From the NCBI GenBank assembly GCA_903825315.1, contig CAIKAD010000001.1, positions 434,001 through 498,000 of the forward strand: a stretch of DNA of 64,000 nt, given 5' to 3'. The position numbers and the translations under genes were made by a program. Numbering within the stretch: the first letter of the stretch is position 1; the number at the start of each line of letters is the position of its first letter. Shown here in pieces: positions 45,646-60,007 of the stretch. The notes under the pieces are model-generated. The model saw only the letters and a list, made by a program, of their open reading frames with translations. It was not told the DNA's origin and searched no databases. Origin of the DNA: an uncultured Candidatus Peregrinibacteria bacterium. GTDB taxonomy: Bacteria > Patescibacteriota > Gracilibacteria > Peribacterales > Peribacteraceae.

Positions 45646-46116
45646 TTATGTTGAGGGATTGAGAGTACGTGGGACATTCAAAGCTGCTACACAGCCAGTT
45701 TGGGCCAGATACAAACCGCGAATGCTGACAAGAAGAGCGGCATTCTGATCCGGAGTTCCCTGGTAATTCATGATGCCCATATCCGCGGCTATGGAGTGTC
45801 GAGAGGTAAACGATGAGGATAAGCCAATACTCACCATGGTATCCTTGAGTGTTGCATCAAGCGGTATGACGGGAACGGACGTGCACACTGGGATTGTGAC
45901 CGTAGTCGGAACGACAGGAAGTTCATGGGGCAGGGAATCGATTATCAGAGGATGCATAGGATTCTTCATTACGATTTTGGGAGGCTTTCCCCAAGGTTTT
46001 TCCAGTAATGTTATCGTGGATAATTCATCCGTTACGCTCTTCTGTAGCAGAGCGGCGGCGGTTGCAAACACACTGCACGTGACGAGGAAGATGATGGAAA
46101 AAGAAATCGCTCTCAT
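45646..46116 (-). CDS. Secreted hypothetical protein (156 aa)
   Basis: The N-terminus MRAISFSIIFLVTCSVFATA is a signal peptide or signal anchor. The exported part is Pro/Val-rich, with two Cys (IPVCTSVPV and QTGCVAALN), and ends with a segment SIGLSSSFTSRHSIAADMGIMNYQGTPDQNAALLVSIRG in several parts that looks like a small conserved repeat domain. I do not recognise it. The ATG overlaps the stop of an upstream small membrane-protein gene (ATGA), which indicates a two-gene operon. Confidence 0.6.
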   Translation of the reverse strand: MRAISFSIIFLVTCSVFATAAALLQKSVTDELSTITLLEKPWGKPPKIVMKNPMHPLIIDSLPHELPVVPTTVTIPVCTSVPVIPLDATLKDTMVSIGLSSSFTSRHSIAADMGIMNYQGTPDQNAALLVSIRGLYLAQTGCVAALNVPRTLNPST

Positions 46117-46238
46117 TTGTACTTTCGCGACCGCAAGCGGTACACGAGTGACCGGTATTTCTGAATTCCTGTGCTGCCGGCAATAATCGTCAGGTGAATG
46201 ATGAGTGATAGGCCGAAGAATTGTGCAACGGGAAGCAT
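46113..46238 (-). CDS. Small membrane protein (41 aa) upstream of the secreted protein
   Basis: The ATG-started frame encodes one helix (MLPVAQFFGLSLIIHLTIIAG) and a very basic tail (QKYRSLVYRLRSRKYK). Its stop codon shares bases with the ATG of the next gene (ATGA, 46113-46116), the strongest argument that it is translated. A TTG start at 46340 would give 75 aa. The function is unknown; a partner of the exported protein behind it is a guess from coupling. Confidence 0.5.
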   Translation of the reverse strand: MLPVAQFFGLSLIIHLTIIAGSTGIQKYRSLVYRLRSRKYK

Positions 46239-46502
46239 GAAATCTGGAAACGGTACAATAACCACTGCCGACTTTTTTATTCTGGGGGGAAAGTAGTTGA
46301 GGCAATCCGTCCAGCGAGAGCGTGGTGGACACGTGTGCAACAGTGAGCTGAACTTGAAGACGTCACGAAGAAGAAGTCCTTACAAAAACTAGTCATGATT
46401 GACATATGTATTTCTGTAACCTGGTATACATATATTGAATATTCAATGCGTAAGGTACTATTAACCGATCATTACGAACTGTTACTCAGGATGATTGGAA
46501 TG

Positions 46503-53920: not shown

Positions 53921-54454
53921 ATGATATTTTGTCCTCTCCCGGGTTCGCCGACAATCACGCAAGGATTCGGCCAGAATCCAGACATGTACAAGCAGTACGG
54001 CTTTGACGGTCATAATGGTTTCGATTTCGGTGTTCCCGAAGGAACTCTAATCTACGCACCGCATGACGGTGTCGCCAAGGTGACAGATGATGGGGCGATC
54101 GGTTACGGACTGTATCTCGTCATCGACGCGCCGACGCGACGGAGCATACTCGCGCACTGTTCGCAGATGCTTGTCTCTGACGGGCAGTCCATATCACAGG
54201 GAGATCCTGTTGCCAGGAGTGGCGCGTCGGGAAACTGCTATGGGGCGCACTTGCATTGGACTTTTAAAATTCTTCAACACGGCCTCGTGCAGAATAAGGA
54301 TAATGGTTATGACGGCGCCATGGACGTGTCGGAATTAACGCGACTCTGGCAGCAGCAGGACCTCAGACGTGACGGCCAATTCACGTCCGAAGCACAGGGA
54401 TACCTCACCCTGAATCTGACGGATAACCAGTGCCTTAAGAGAACAGTGACCTAA
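53921..54454 (+). CDS. M23-family metallopeptidase, no signal peptide
   Basis: The product (177 aa) is a LytM-type domain: GFDGHNGFDFGVPEGT (His and Asp zinc ligands), YAPHDGVAKV, GYGLYLVIDAP, and GAHLHWTF with the final His-x-His. These enzymes cut peptidoglycan cross-links. There is no signal peptide or membrane helix, so the protein is either exported another way or released by lysis, as with phage-type endolysins. TACCAT (53909-53914) ends 6 nt before ATG. It ends 3 nt before the convergent ROK gene. Confidence 0.88.
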   Translation: MIFCPLPGSPTITQGFGQNPDMYKQYGFDGHNGFDFGVPEGTLIYAPHDGVAKVTDDGAIGYGLYLVIDAPTRRSILAHCSQMLVSDGQSISQGDPVARSGASGNCYGAHLHWTFKILQHGLVQNKDNGYDGAMDVSELTRLWQQQDLRRDGQFTSEAQGYLTLNLTDNQCLKRTVT

Positions 54455-54457
54455 TGG

Positions 54458-55342
54458 TCACTTCTGTGAAGCGTCCCAGGCAAGCATGGCTGCGCCCATT
54501 GTGGATGCGCCAGCAATTTGCGATAGAGCAAGACGGGGCAATGGAGTTCCTGTAAGGACCCATTGCCGCATTTCTTCTTCAATGGAAGGAAGGAATGCTT
54601 GCAGTGCCTTTCCCATACTTCCACCAAATATGATGGAAGAAGGATTGAGAAGGTGTGTAAGGTTCGTGCAGAGCCAGGCGCATTCCCGAATGATAGCCGG
54701 ATGGATAGACGCACAGGATGTACCCTCTAGAAATTCGTTGGGGTCCGCTGCTTCTGGGCAGCGCTTGCGGAGCGCGGAACCGGAGAGAAATTGTTCTACC
54801 TCGCCACGCTTGTTGTTCGTCTCAAACGGAGGTGAGCCGGGGACAAGAAGCATGTGGCCGATTTCTGCGGCAAATCCTTGTGAGCCGCGGAATATCTTTC
54901 CGTCGATGACAATGCCTCCACCCACGCCGGTCCCCATCGTTATGCCTATAACAACATCGTCGCCTTTTCCGGCCCCCTTGCGCGCTTCGGCAAGTGCAAA
55001 GCAGTTACTGTCGTTCTCCACGGTAACCGGCAAATCAAAACGCTCAGAGCACATGTCGAGTAGCTTATAGCCTTCTCCACCGGGAATGTTGGGCAGCGTT
55101 TGGATAACGCCTTCCGGTTGCTTCACAAGACCGGGTATGCCGAGGCCGATTGCAACAACACCATCCGTCATCCATTCTTCAGATAGACGCAACGTATCTT
55201 CCAACACGGCAGGGAATCCGCGCTGGGCATGCGTAGGGAACTTCTCCCGTTTGATAAGCTTCCATGATCCAGTTTCATACAATGCAACAGCACTCTTCGT
55301 GCCACCAATATCTATGCCGATGGCGCATGGAACAGACAACAT
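54458..55342 (-). CDS. ROK-family sugar kinase (glucokinase-like)
   Basis: The product (294 aa) has the ROK pattern: AIGIDIGGTKSAVALYE phosphate loop, TVENDSNCFALAEA, ITMGTGVGGGIVIDG, and AAEIGHM with the catalytic/zinc-region His. The Cys-rich zinc motif typical of many ROK kinases is not clearly present. It likely phosphorylates glucose or a related sugar to feed glycolysis. TACAAT (55349-55354) ends 6 nt before ATG, so the start at MLSVPCA is preferred over the longer frame. Confidence 0.86.
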   Translation of the reverse strand: MLSVPCAIGIDIGGTKSAVALYETGSWKLIKREKFPTHAQRGFPAVLEDTLRLSEEWMTDGVVAIGLGIPGLVKQPEGVIQTLPNIPGGEGYKLLDMCSERFDLPVTVENDSNCFALAEARKGAGKGDDVVIGITMGTGVGGGIVIDGKIFRGSQGFAAEIGHMLLVPGSPPFETNNKRGEVEQFLSGSALRKRCPEAADPNEFLEGTSCASIHPAIIRECAWLCTNLTHLLNPSSIIFGGSMGKALQAFLPSIEEEMRQWVLTGTPLPRLALSQIAGASTMGAAMLAWDASQK

Positions 55343-55480
55343 TACACAATTGTAGCATGTGTACAGATTGATAGAGAAAAGTTGCCGAAAGAGAACTACT
55401 GGATAAAACATAAAACATAGCGTATGCTAAACATCTTCCTTCGAAACCCCTGAGAGCGATACCTTCCCTCCGCCTGGAGT

Positions 55481-55999
55481 ATGGTCACTCCTCCCCTTAC
55501 ACCAGAAGAAGAGCTCGCTGAAGCGTATAATAAGTACGCGGACGCCATATTCCGGCATTGTTACTTTCGTGTATTTGATCGGGAACGCGGAAAGGAGCTC
55601 ATGCAGGAAACATTTATGCGCGCGTGGACATATATTGGTGACGACCGGAAGAAGAAAGTGCTAAACATGCGTGCATTTCTGTATCGCATCGCCAACAATC
55701 TTATCGTGGATGAGGTAAGAAAGAAGAAGGAGTTATCACTCGATGAATTGCAGAAGAGTGGGTGGGATCCCAGCTACGACGGTTTGGCGGAAATGCAGAA
55801 ACGCGTAGAGCAAAACAAGATCTTCGATCTCCTGCATCATGTCCCTAAGGAATACAGGGAGGTGCTCATTATGCGTTACATTGACGGTCTCACGCCGGCG
55901 GACATTGCGGAGATTCTCGGCGAGACTCCTAACGCCATTTCCGTGCGTCTTCACCGAGGCATCAAACAGCTTCATGCTTTGCTGGGAAGGAAACACTGA
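55481..55999 (+). CDS. ECF-type RNA polymerase sigma factor
   Basis: The product (172 aa) has the two domains of group IV sigma factors: region 2 (YNKYADAIFRHCYFRVFDRE, GKELMQETFMRAW, FLYRIANNLIVDEVRKKK) and region 4 (VPKEYREVLIMRYIDGLTPADIAEILGETPNAISVRLHRG), with no region 1 or 3. It redirects RNA polymerase to a special promoter set. No anti-sigma gene is beside it, so control may come from another locus, or through transcription of the gene itself. The next gene, 261 nt downstream on the same strand, encodes the large repeat protein and is a candidate target. Confidence 0.92.
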   Translation: MVTPPLTPEEELAEAYNKYADAIFRHCYFRVFDRERGKELMQETFMRAWTYIGDDRKKKVLNMRAFLYRIANNLIVDEVRKKKELSLDELQKSGWDPSYDGLAEMQKRVEQNKIFDLLHHVPKEYREVLIMRYIDGLTPADIAEILGETPNAISVRLHRGIKQLHALLGRKH

Positions 56000-56260
56000 T
56001 GCCTAAACATAGATTGCTTCTCTCGAGTATGGTGTAAGAATAACTGTCATGAGTGAGAACCTGCGGAACGTTTTGTTATGTCGTAAGTAATGCGAAATGC
56101 AGAGCGAAGCTATTGACGCTCTCACTAGGGCTGGAAAAGCGATGTAAGAGGTTGGATCACTTCGCGTCAACGTACGCGAGTTCTCATTCTATTCGTGGGT
56201 GCTGAGGGGCGGGAAACAACCCTCATCCAACATTTTACTTCCTTCCATCAATACTTCTAT

Positions 56261-59158
56261 ATGGCAGTTCGAAGAAAGAAAGCGAAGCGGCTGGCGGTTG
56301 GGCGAACGCAAACTGCCCATCCGACTGTAAAGGCACTGGCTTCCGTTGGTACGGTTGCCGTGATGCTTGCAACGGTCGTATCTGGCATGTCGTATGCGGC
56401 TGGGATTCCTTCGTGGGCGGCGGGCAGTCCGCTGCAACTTGCGTGGATTCCGTTCTTCCAAACAGGAAATATCGGAACTCATGCCTCAACCGACGCTCAT
56501 TCGCTGGTGAATGCGGAATCGGCACAAGAGACAAATATCAGTCAACTCGGAACCTTAGGCCTCTTTGGGCCTGCTTTCCAAAATGCGGAAGTAGGGAACG
56601 GACAGTCAACACTTGTCGGTTCCCCTATCAATGCCGGCGCGGTAAACGCAATTGATCTTTCCCAGGGCTGGAGCCCTTTTGGTACTACTACCGTTGGTGC
56701 GGATGCAGCAACGGATGTGCATACATTTATTAACGCAGGATCACTGAACAGGACAGGGGTCGTGCAAATGGGTGCTGGTGTACAGAATGCAGATGTTTCG
56801 AATGTAGCAGGTACATTGGTAGATGCCCCAATTAACGCGGGTTCGTTAAACAATGTGGGTATTTATATGGGGAATATTCCCTACATTTCCGGTGGTAGCG
56901 TGAACGGCTTTGAGGAAACGCCCGGTGTGCCCTGTACCGGGAATTGCGGCAATTCCGAAGTACCACCTCCTTGTACCGGCAACTGCGGTGGTTCGGAACT
57001 CCCGCCTGGTTGCACGGGGAATTGCGGCGGTGACGTTCTCCCTGACTCCGGAAACTCTGGCGGATGGACGTGGAGCAATGGCAACGTTCTCTCCTTCGCA
57101 GATACGGACGTACATTCATTCAATAATTCCAATAGCGACAATGAAACGTCTGTCTTCCAAACTCTGGCCAACTGGCTCGATTGCCTGCCGGGGTTTCAGA
57201 CTGCGAACGTGAATAATTTGGCGCTCTCCAATATCGGTTCACTTATTAACGCAGGCGCGTTGAACAATATCGGACTCGTCCAGTTAGGCTCTGGATGGTC
57301 TACGCCACAGACGGCAACCATCCTCGCAATGGCGGACACAGAAGTGAACTCCTTGAATAACTCCAATGCTGGCAATACGACAGCAATAGTCCAAAGCGCG
57401 CTTGGTTCTGCTCAGCAACAAGCGGAGGTATGGAATATGGCGCTTTCGGGCATTAACTCCACAATAAATGCTGGTTCGGTGAACAATATAGGCGTTACGC
57501 AGGCCGCACCGATTGTATTAGGAGGCTTTGGTCAGCAGTCCGCAGACATAGCAGCTGCGGCAGATACAATAGTAAACTCCATGAATAATTCGAACGCTTC
57601 TAACGCTTCATTGATTGCTCAACAAGGGAGTGGTATTGGTGGATGCGGATGGGGATGTGGAGTTGGCAGTTTACAGGATGCTGACGCTTTGAACATGGCG
57701 GCATCAGGTATCGAATCCACAATTAATGCTGGATCGATGAACAATATAGGACTCAATCAGGTTGGCGGCCTCGTCGATCATGGGACGCTTTCGCAATTAG
57801 CTTCGGTAGTTGCTCCCGCGTTAACGATCGTCAATTCACTCAATAACTCCAACGCAGACAACTCGACATTGATTCTTCAAGATTCTGGCTCTCCATCGTG
57901 GATCGGTGGGTTCCAGGAAGCTGATGCAGTGAATGTTGCGGCATCCGGAGTGGATTCCCATGTCAATGCCGGATCGATGAATAACATCGGCGTGAATCAG
58001 TTGGGCGGCTTGGTAGTTAATGGAGCGTCCTCTCAGTATGCGGACGTGACTGCTCCATCTGCAACAGTCGTAAATTCGGAGAATAATTCCAATGCCTCCA
58101 ATGATCTCGGCATCTTCCAGGAAGCACTTGGGGGAGGTTTTCAAAATGCTGATGCAATGAACGTCGCGGATTCAGGAGTGGACTCCTCAATTAACGCTGG
58201 ATCGGTGAACAACATCGGCGTGAACCAGTTGGGAGGGAACGTTTTGAACGGCGCCTCTTCGCAATATGTTTCCGTAGACGCTCCGTCAATGACGGTCGTC
58301 AATTCGGAGAATAACTCCAATGCAAGCAATGGCACGATGATCGGCCAGACGGGAGGCGGTAATCCCTGTCTAGGCGGATGCGGCTTGGGAAGTCTACAGG
58401 ATGCCGATGCCATGAATGTCGCAAACTCCGGTATCGACTCCACCATCAACGCCGGTTCCCAGAATAACATTGCGGTGAACCAAGTTGGTGGCAATGTACA
58501 CCACGGCGCACAAGCGCAATACGTGGAAGTGAATGCGCCGGCCATGACGGTCGTCAATTCGGAGAATAACTCTAATGCCTCCAATGAGCTCGGCATCTTC
58601 CAGGATGCACTCGGTGGCGGCGTGGGAGGGGGACAGAATGCCGATGCGACAAATGTCGCAAACTCCGGCATCGACTCCACCATCAACGCTGGTTCCCAGA
58701 ACAACATCATGGTGAACCAAGTTGGTGGCAACGTAGACCATGGCGCGTCGGCGCAATACGTGGAAGTGAACGCGCCGGCCATGACGGTCGTCAATTCGGA
58801 GAATAACTCTAATGCGGTGAACAACACCGGTATCGTCCAGGATCAACCGTCTGTAACTACGTTTGGGGCTTCCTGCCAGTCGGGAGGCTGCTCTCTTGTA
58901 ACACCAGACTACCAAACGGCAGCTGCAGACCAGTCTGCAAACTCGAATGTAGATTCAACAATCAACGCTGGTTCGACCAATAACGTAGAAGTCAACCAGG
59001 TAGGCAGCGGTGTAGATAGCGGAACGGCCAACCAGAATGCGGTGGTCAACTCCTGCAACAACACAACTGTCAATTCAGAAATCAATGCCGGCTCGTCCAA
59101 TACCACCGGCATCGTTCAGATGGCGCCCGTGTTCCCTACGGGACTCTTCGTCCACTGA
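56261..59158 (+). CDS. Large secreted Asn/Ser-rich repeat protein
   Basis: The product (965 aa) has a basic N-terminus (RRKKAKRLAVGRTQ) and a signal helix (ALASVGTVAVMLATVVSGMSYAA), then repeats to the C-terminal end. Two half-motifs alternate: one around VNSxNNSNAxN followed by a hydrophobic-Gln (I-x-Q) stretch, one around SxINAGSxNNIGVNQ. I count 12 INAG[SA]-type and 8 NNSN-type half-repeats; late copies have a period of 79 residues. Cys occurs only in Gly-rich insertions (three CTGNCG units, GCGWGC, CLGGC). The N/Q/S/G-rich, Gln-at-turn layout recalls curlin-type or beta-solenoid fibres, but no family is recognised. There is no C-terminal sorting signal. Confidence 0.75.
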   Translation: MAVRRKKAKRLAVGRTQTAHPTVKALASVGTVAVMLATVVSGMSYAAGIPSWAAGSPLQLAWIPFFQTGNIGTHASTDAHSLVNAESAQETNISQLGTLGLFGPAFQNAEVGNGQSTLVGSPINAGAVNAIDLSQGWSPFGTTTVGADAATDVHTFINAGSLNRTGVVQMGAGVQNADVSNVAGTLVDAPINAGSLNNVGIYMGNIPYISGGSVNGFEETPGVPCTGNCGNSEVPPPCTGNCGGSELPPGCTGNCGGDVLPDSGNSGGWTWSNGNVLSFADTDVHSFNNSNSDNETSVFQTLANWLDCLPGFQTANVNNLALSNIGSLINAGALNNIGLVQLGSGWSTPQTATILAMADTEVNSLNNSNAGNTTAIVQSALGSAQQQAEVWNMALSGINSTINAGSVNNIGVTQAAPIVLGGFGQQSADIAAAADTIVNSMNNSNASNASLIAQQGSGIGGCGWGCGVGSLQDADALNMAASGIESTINAGSMNNIGLNQVGGLVDHGTLSQLASVVAPALTIVNSLNNSNADNSTLILQDSGSPSWIGGFQEADAVNVAASGVDSHVNAGSMNNIGVNQLGGLVVNGASSQYADVTAPSATVVNSENNSNASNDLGIFQEALGGGFQNADAMNVADSGVDSSINAGSVNNIGVNQLGGNVLNGASSQYVSVDAPSMTVVNSENNSNASNGTMIGQTGGGNPCLGGCGLGSLQDADAMNVANSGIDSTINAGSQNNIAVNQVGGNVHHGAQAQYVEVNAPAMTVVNSENNSNASNELGIFQDALGGGVGGGQNADATNVANSGIDSTINAGSQNNIMVNQVGGNVDHGASAQYVEVNAPAMTVVNSENNSNAVNNTGIVQDQPSVTTFGASCQSGGCSLVTPDYQTAAADQSANSNVDSTINAGSTNNVEVNQVGSGVDSGTANQNAVVNSCNNTTVNSEINAGSSNTTGIVQMAPVFPTGLFVH
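56930..57033 (+). repeat. Three CTGNCGG-type cysteine units
   Basis: Three direct repeats encode PCTGNCGN, PCTGNCGG and GCTGNCGG, each separated by an acidic/proline spacer (SEVPP, SELPP). Paired Cys in each unit could form disulfides or bind metal. Confidence 0.7.
57100..59110 (+). repeat. Tandem in-frame repeats of the fibre-like gene
   Basis: The region is built of alternating half-repeat units. In the last third the copies are nearly identical at the nucleotide level: GCGCAATACGTGGAAGTGAA occurs at 58514 and again at 58751, a period of 237 nt (79 codons). Such identity allows unequal recombination and length variation. Confidence 0.85.
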
Positions 59159-59204: not shown

Positions 59205-59263
59205 GTATGATTACAGTTCCGTGCACTGATGACAGTACAGGTAAGCATACGTACAATGACTGC

Positions 59264-60007
59264 ATGGCAAACGGAACACGCACACGACGACTGTTCGACC
59301 CCTCATCGGACGAGCCCTTCAAGATCAGCAGATCCAAAATGGAAATGTTTCTCAAATGCCCACGGTGTTTTTACCTCGATCGTCGTCTGGGAATTAGTCA
59401 GGTATCCGGTCCGGCATTTACGCTTAACACTGCCGTCGATCATCTTCTAAAAAAGGAGTTCGATATGTACCGTTCACGGGGGGAACCGCATCCACTCATG
59501 CAAACGTTTGGAGTGGAAGCCGTTCCTTTCCAGCACCATTCTCTGGAAGACTGGCGCGATAACCGCAAAGGCATCCAGTTCCAGGATAAAGCATCACACT
59601 TTCTCTTTTTTGGAGCTATTGATGACATCTGGGTCAACGCAGACGGTGAATTGCACGTGGTCGACTACAAATCAACGAGCATCAGTGGGACAGTGACTCT
59701 CGAGGGTGAATGGAAGGAGGCCTACAAGCGTCAGGTGGAAATGTACCAGTGGCTCTTCCGTCAGAACGGCTTCCCGGTCTCCTCCACAGCTTTCTTCGTG
59801 TATGTGAACGGGGACAAGTCGAAGGCAGGATTTGACGGACGACTGGAATTTAGTATGCAGATACTTCCGCATGACGGAGATGACTCCTGGGTGGCCGAGG
59901 CTTTGCAGGAGGCACGCCTTTGCCTGGAACGGGATACGCTTCCCCCGTCTCATCCGGACTGCGAATGGTGTTCTTATCGGAGGGTTGCGAAGGAAGTGGA
60001 GGGTTGA
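59264..60007 (+). CDS. PD-(D/E)XK nuclease of the RecB/Cas4-like family
   Basis: The product (247 aa) has ISRSKMEMFLKCPRCFYL at the N-terminus, the catalytic Asp in FGAIDDIWV and D-x-K in HVVDYKSTS, and the QVEMYQWL helix of motif Q-x3-Y. Two Cys of the first segment (CPRC) and two at the C-terminus (DCEWCSY) fit the four ligands of a [4Fe-4S] cluster, as in Cas4 and AddB. It should cut or process DNA ends. There is no CRISPR array or Cas gene nearby. TACAAT (59252-59257) ends 6 nt before ATG, fixing the start. It lies 47 nt before a tRNA-Ser gene. Confidence 0.85.
   Translation: MANGTRTRRLFDPSSDEPFKISRSKMEMFLKCPRCFYLDRRLGISQVSGPAFTLNTAVDHLLKKEFDMYRSRGEPHPLMQTFGVEAVPFQHHSLEDWRDNRKGIQFQDKASHFLFFGAIDDIWVNADGELHVVDYKSTSISGTVTLEGEWKEAYKRQVEMYQWLFRQNGFPVSSTAFFVYVNGDKSKAGFDGRLEFSMQILPHDGDDSWVAEALQEARLCLERDTLPPSHPDCEWCSYRRVAKEVEG

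Follow-up and report, generated by a model that had tools for sequence, protein, structure and literature searches.

An ECF sigma factor and an adjacent exported repeat protein form a candidate surface-protein module in Peribacteraceae

A 64-kb stretch of a Peribacteraceae genome, hereafter the window (G000:C1:434001-498000; genome G000 of 1.29 Mb, 99.6% complete), carries a gene for an extracytoplasmic function (ECF) sigma factor and, directly behind it, a gene for a long exported protein built of tandem repeats, referred to here as the fibre gene after its putative role. With 74 related genomes behind the DNA evidence, we consider a sigma-controlled surface-protein module of the Peribacteraceae (Patescibacteria) the best explanation overall, and a probable one. 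The elements of this module lie in the window as follows.

55481-55999, forward strand: ECF sigma factor gene, 172 aa, without C-terminal extension (Pfam)
56143-56168, forward strand: sigma-type promoter, TGTAAG (-35, 56143-56148), N16, CGTC (-10, 56165-56168), 92 bp before the fibre ATG
56261 (ATG) to 59158 (stop), forward strand: exported repeat (fibre) protein gene, 965 aa
56261-56401, forward strand: extended signal peptide, residues 1 to about 47, MAVRRKKAKRLAVGRTQ...TVVSGMSYA (from sequence and hydropathy; putative cleavage site)
56456-59119, forward strand: tandem 28-residue units and loops, about 21 units, 17 of them strict, the final unit near the C-terminus
56870-57082, forward strand: Gly/Pro/Cys-rich insertion between units with three CTGNCG motifs (from sequence and the alignment with sister species G003)

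The sigma factor matches Pfam Sigma70_r2 (3.4e-10, residues 16-83) and Sigma70_r4_2 (1e-14, residues 113-164) and has no region 3, which is the ECF (group IV) architecture named in the original prediction. Its G003 orthologue is 84-86% identical. The signal of the repeat protein consists of a long charged N-region, a single hydrophobic segment, and an AxA-type site. A longer alternative start exists (GTG at 56195), and ATG 56261 is preferred because it agrees with the G003 start.

The half-repeats with regularly placed Gln that were originally described are real, and both types form one 28-residue unit with the consensus Q0-x-A2-x-V4...A8-x-T10...S14...N22-x-T/I24-x-I/V26-x-Q28. Two Gln residues are separated by 28 positions 18 times, compared to 2.8 times in shuffled sequences (maximum 8). 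The 17 strict 29-mers (Q...N22...Q28), or about 21 units by profile, are joined by loops of mostly 11-12 residues, resulting in an overall period of about 40. The claim that Cys is confined to Gly-rich insertions fails, as one Cys (VVNSCNNT) sits inside a unit. Pfam (including the haemagglutinin repeats), NCBIfam, and PHROGs yield no family match, a PDB search by sequence, for which the protein and two profiles served as queries, returned nothing of value, and no match was found in collections of phages and plasmids (by tblastn) or viral contigs. Judged by sequence, the protein belongs to an undescribed family, as predicted, with no characterised family emerging from the profile searches.

A 36-position unit profile finds matches in eight of 353 genomes of the class, all eight in the same family, besides one unrelated weak match, and in none outside Peribacteraceae among 380 genomes sampled from the phylum. 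A match in G292 (L121) was set aside as a different, Gly/Thr-rich protein. The 28-residue register recurs in the orthologue from G003, which has 1123 aa and 23 units and is 55% identical where the two align, in a G041 protein of 2618 aa with 63 units, and in proteins encoded by G033 (1720 aa), G051 (1755 aa), and G038 (1084 aa). Composition-adjusted BLASTP aligns the window and G041 proteins at 30% over 661 aa (E 3.6e-27), while the window protein matches G033 weakly (E 1e-4) and G041 matches G033 at E 6e-32. A unit hidden Markov model (HMM) built from the window and G003 alone gives 12.4 bits for the best G041 domain and shuffle level for G033. Kinship of the G033 protein is thus based on the shared register, the weak BLASTP match, the G041-G033 match, and gene position, the unit HMM being unsupportive.

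A sigma gene of the same subfamily directly precedes five of the six long repeat genes (window, G003, G041:C18, G033:C11, and G051:C6); in G003 the order is sigma, anti-sigma, fibre, with one gene intervening. The pairing recurs in three other genera; it is conserved in relatives as the original prediction had envisaged, and the two genes are not separated in all of them. The short repeat genes of G012 and G003:C4 are not beside a sigma gene, and the G045 contig is too short to judge adjacency. Fibre-linked sigmas, which by their sequences may have a single origin, fall into more than one clade in the best tree of 45 sigmas (three label changes). Sigma is 84% identical between G000 and G003, while the remaining genes of the conserved slot around it reach only 54-75%. 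This conservation, the promoter in front of the fibre gene, and the recurrence in other genera make it very improbable that the pairing is a coincidence in which a lineage-specific repeat protein landed next to an orphan sigma that is unrelated to it and perhaps decaying, even though the anti-sigma gene is gone, the sigma lacks a promoter site of its own, and only two of the four genomes of the genus carry the repeat gene. The ratio of non-synonymous to synonymous substitution rates between G000 and G003 is uninformative, as synonymous sites are saturated.

The site at 56143-56168 is the sole forward-strand match to TGTAA-N16..18-CGTC in the window, and CGTC is a typical -10 element of ECF promoters (PMC3426412). 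The pattern is present in 13 of 30 sigma upstream regions (0.08 expected, maximum 1 in 500 simulations) and in four of the six long repeat gene upstream regions, window included (0.02 expected); the motif was spotted by eye in sigma and fibre upstreams jointly, and both counts are not fully blind. The independent test of the promoter is the comparison of whole-genome densities. Sigma-positive Peribacteraceae contain 102 matches to TGTAAGA-N15-CGTC in 34 genomes (2.34/Mb; reversed-pattern control 1.26/Mb), whereas sigma-negative ones, defined by a best sigma match weaker than about E 1e-20, contain seven in 23 genomes (0.28/Mb; control 0.95/Mb). Promoter density is about eightfold higher with the sigma than without it (57 genomes, not phylogenetically independent; Mann-Whitney p=1.5e-7). 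In G003, the promoter precedes the anti-sigma gene, the fibre gene, and, on a different contig, an unlinked gene for a small repeat protein. In G000, an exact TGTAAG-N17-CGTC lies about 31 bp before the likely start of an unlinked minor repeat protein (about C1:366.9 kb). Because a sigma-specific promoter precedes the fibre gene, its control by the adjacent sigma has independent evidence.

The 25 judged open reading frames (ORFs) downstream of promoter sites comprise four sigma genes, two anti-sigma genes, and 14 exported-looking products by a crude signal rule (background 21.5%). Judged from these sequences, further exported proteins are probably under the control of the sigma too, which is hence no private fibre regulator. 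The proposal that the fibre is switched on by its own sigma is upheld by the recurrent pairing and the sigma-specific promoter, but not as regards exclusivity. A different reading builds on this breadth: a general envelope-stress sigma would govern a broad exported regulon, with the repeat protein as an ordinary neighbour target that acts as a monomeric stalk, adhesin, or S-layer-like coat. Genes for a glycosyltransferase, a GlsB-like membrane protein, and other exported products also have TGTAAG-N16-CGTC in front of them, and most sigma-anti-sigma pairs of the family have no neighbouring repeat protein; yet five of six long repeat genes adjoin a sigma of the same subfamily and unlinked minor ones carry the promoter, a tighter association than expected of an arbitrary target. 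We regard this broad-regulon explanation as possible, though the less favoured one.

In most relatives, the gene directly after sigma overlaps or adjoins the sigma stop and encodes a DUF5667-related protein that has a conserved cytoplasmic N-terminal part (FxxxAxxxxLxxxEK) and a PGDxLYxxK motif and crosses the membrane once. Position, topology, and co-occurrence suggest that this DUF5667-type protein acts as the anti-sigma. The G003 candidate comprises 453 aa, and in G029 and G032 only short fragments are left behind sigma. The window contains no anti-sigma gene between sigma and fibre, the entire G000 genome contains none at E up to 0.1, and tblastn detects no decayed remnant in 55999-56261. 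The canonical sigma/anti-sigma neighbourhood is thus missing from window and genome, while it is found in G003 and most relatives. Since the sister species and most relatives carry the anti-sigma gene after sigma, its absence from the window is a derived local loss. The originally noted lack of an adjacent anti-sigma gene is correct both locally and genome-wide, but reflects a lineage-specific secondary loss and not a design of the system. One short ORF occupies the position in question and is possibly, on weak grounds, a relic of the lost gene.

55999-56037, forward strand: 12-codon ORF whose ATG overlaps the sigma stop (TGATG), at the position of the anti-sigma start in relatives

Another ECF sigma of G000 (G000:C3) has behind it a gene for a 653-aa protein that matches DUF5667 (3.8e-13) and spans the membrane once (L061:4941-6902, reverse strand). 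By sequence, DUF5667 appears to serve generally as an anti-sigma partner in this lineage. The searched literature mentions neither DUF5667 nor a link of Peribacteria with ECF regulation.

The curlin strand kernel N-x-Psi-x-Psi-x-Q (PMC10192328) occurs 18 times in the window protein compared to 0.54 in shuffles (maximum 4), and in this the protein resembles curlin. The resemblance does not extend further: the curlin spacing Q-X10-Q is not enriched (3 vs 2.7 expected), the period of about 40 is outside the 23 +/- 5 of curlin, and Curlin_rpt (PF07012) gives no match at E<=1 for the window protein, at E<=10 for its relatives, or in eight genomes, while the E. coli control is positive. CsgG (PF03783) is absent from six fibre genomes with positive controls, in agreement with the predicted lack of a curli secretion system. 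The unit profile scores 6 bits on the CsgB repeat and nothing notable on CsgA. The kernel enrichment and the CsgA and FapC structures among the Foldseek matches described below would suit a genuine curli protein whose divergence has gone past detection, but the missing Q-X10-Q spacing, the period of 40 instead of 23, the absence of Curlin_rpt and CsgG despite positive E. coli controls, and the poor profile scores on CsgB and CsgA render such descent improbable. At the level of sequence, the repeat protein is not a curlin family member. As Q-X10-Q, Curlin_rpt, and CsgG are absent though the kernel is shared, the likeness is one of analogy only, by which the protein may work like curli or Fap.

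This analogy nevertheless covers several features. Like curli (CsgA/CsgB), the system combines secreted tandem repeats, N-x-Psi-x-Psi-x-Q kernels and predicted Gln/Asn ladders with major and minor subunit genes under common control. Unlike in curli, there is one kernel per 40-residue unit instead of two per 23 residues, none of the three curli hallmarks named above, up to 63 units per protein, and control by an ECF sigma instead of CsgD. The functional amyloid FapC of Pseudomonas would share with it layers of more than 30 residues that have conserved Asn and Gln and long linkers, but has three repeats, and no sequence similarity to it was found.

AlphaFold2 models of two segments are all-beta. 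The seven-unit segment (36-row alignment) reaches pLDDT 65.6 and pTM 0.56 with two of five models good, and the four-unit segment (99-row alignment) pLDDT 79.0 and pTM 0.54 with one of five good. Among 350,542 chains, Foldseek ranks FapC (9u4u/9nqd; E 1.3e-3 to 1.8e-3, TM<0.15) best for both segments and also lists CsgA. VIA-align gives Z of 5.5 and 2.3 against CsgA and up to 6.7 against SufB; the likeness to the SufB/SufD solenoids was read as no more than a common type of arrangement. Structure prediction thus points to an all-beta repeat unit, at moderate confidence and with weak Foldseek matches: the models suit a beta-solenoid and do not prove it. Beta-solenoids are common in non-polymerising adhesins (PMC10192328), as the broad-regulon explanation would have it, whereas the units of the window protein extend nearly to the C-terminus and leave no capping or anchoring domain for a monomeric stalk or coat.

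Several observations count against a sigma-controlled fibre module. No TGTAA-CGTC site is found upstream of the window's own sigma gene or of the G041 fibre gene. In G038:C38 (L073:8261-12681), two repeat genes lie in divergent orientation without an adjoining sigma gene, and the promoter upstream of the G038 repeat gene has one mismatch and no neighbouring sigma. The control densities differ slightly between sigma-positive and sigma-negative sets (p=0.03), the genomes compared lack phylogenetic independence, and downstream genes were judged for 25 of 48 inspected sites. Finally, the structural evidence is weak, with one or two of five models confident and poor Foldseek E and TM values.

Sigma, promoter, pairing, repeat grammar, and anti-sigma loss are well supported by sequence comparison. 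We infer that the protein leaves a monoderm cell via Sec, that its units form solenoid layers, that it assembles into fibres and takes part in attachment, and that its output in this lineage is raised or constitutive. In the proposed mechanism, the ECF sigma would guide RNA polymerase to TGTAAGA-N15-CGTC promoters, of which the one at 56143-56168 would drive the adjacent fibre gene and another of the sigma type the unlinked minor repeat protein at G000:C1 about 366.9 kb. The 965-aa product would leave the cell via Sec, and in a monoderm cell fibre export would need no outer-membrane channel. Each of the about 21 units would form one beta-solenoid layer held by Gln/Asn ladders, and the stacked layers would make up a rigid, elongated fibre, or a subunit of one, comparable to curli or FapC but different in repeat length. 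In relatives, the sigma would be restrained, pending an envelope signal, by a single-span DUF5667-like anti-sigma whose gene often has the same promoter. As the window lineage lost the anti-sigma, fibre output should track sigma abundance and is possibly constitutive. We consider the regulatory half of this explanation highly likely and lean, less firmly, towards the fibre half. A bolder version, in which Patescibacteria separately evolved a functional-amyloid-type fibre with major and minor subunits, a 40-residue Q/N-ladder repeat, an ECF sigma/DUF5667 switch, no dedicated secretion machine, and a function in attachment, the switch being hard-wired on in the window lineage by anti-sigma loss, is tentative and rather doubtful.

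The module bears on how ultra-small Patescibacteria hold on to other cells and regulate their surface with few regulators. It supplies a candidate fibre, its putative controlling sigma, the sequence of a promoter, and a set of further candidate targets that are exported; its components are testable in vitro without growing the organism, and the promoter allows prediction of the surface regulon across Peribacteraceae. Large exported proteins, with stress on Cys-rich ones, have been proposed to mediate attachment in Ca. Peribacter riflensis of the same bacterial family (PMC4736985); that account mentions no sigma factor and does not describe the window repeat. Regulation resembles the ECF41 group, which uses TGTCACA-N16-CGTC promoters and has its target genes next door (PMC3426412): both have a two-domain sigma, a CGTC -10 element, an adjacent gene as target, and targets traced by a conserved upstream motif. 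Here, by contrast, the -35 element is TGTAAGA, the sigma lacks a C-terminal extension, and the role of partner falls to a membrane protein of DUF5667 type, which the window does not have.

The conserved slot that harbours the two genes is delimited by the following neighbours, assigned by Pfam and synteny.

53921-54454, forward strand: M23 peptidase, left border of the slot
54458-55411, reverse strand: ROK-family kinase, flanking; the slot of G029, G032, and G038 has one too
59207-60007, forward strand: PD-(D/E)XK nuclease, right border of the slot, retained in G001 and G002

In G001 and G002 of the same genus, sigma, anti-sigma, and fibre genes are all three missing from this slot, and flanking genes are kept (the PD-(D/E)XK nuclease, in G001 additionally YkuD and RsmH). 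Behind the sigma in the G029 slot, another exported, Cys-rich protein with Kazal-like patterns replaces the fibre (L063:7524-8600).

The promoter pattern occurs at two further loci of G000, 25 bp ahead of a family-2-like glycosyltransferase (G000:C1:387003-387028, reverse strand) and 11 bp ahead of a GlsB/YeaQ-like membrane protein of 81 aa (G000:C2:205408-205433, forward strand), both named by eye. On the reverse strand of the window, TGTAAG-N16-CGTC at 46384-46359 is located upstream of ORF 45646-46332, whose inner ATG opens a signal-peptide-like sequence, MRAISFSIIFLVTCSVFATA. This ORF is possibly a further regulon member by its sequence; the site itself was discounted as being at chance level for the looser pattern.

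A unit with a CxxxC loop (NIxTxxQxCxxxCNQxA) is conserved in the N-terminal third of the G033:C11, G038:C38, G051:C6, and G041:C18 proteins, which are otherwise diverged, and a unit resembling it is also present in the minor repeat protein of the window genome. The latter (G000:C1 about 365804-366860, reverse strand; L120:5805-6926) contains several units and a CGSNC loop in its C-terminal part; about 3 kb away is the gene of another ECF sigma, which has a membrane partner of its own.

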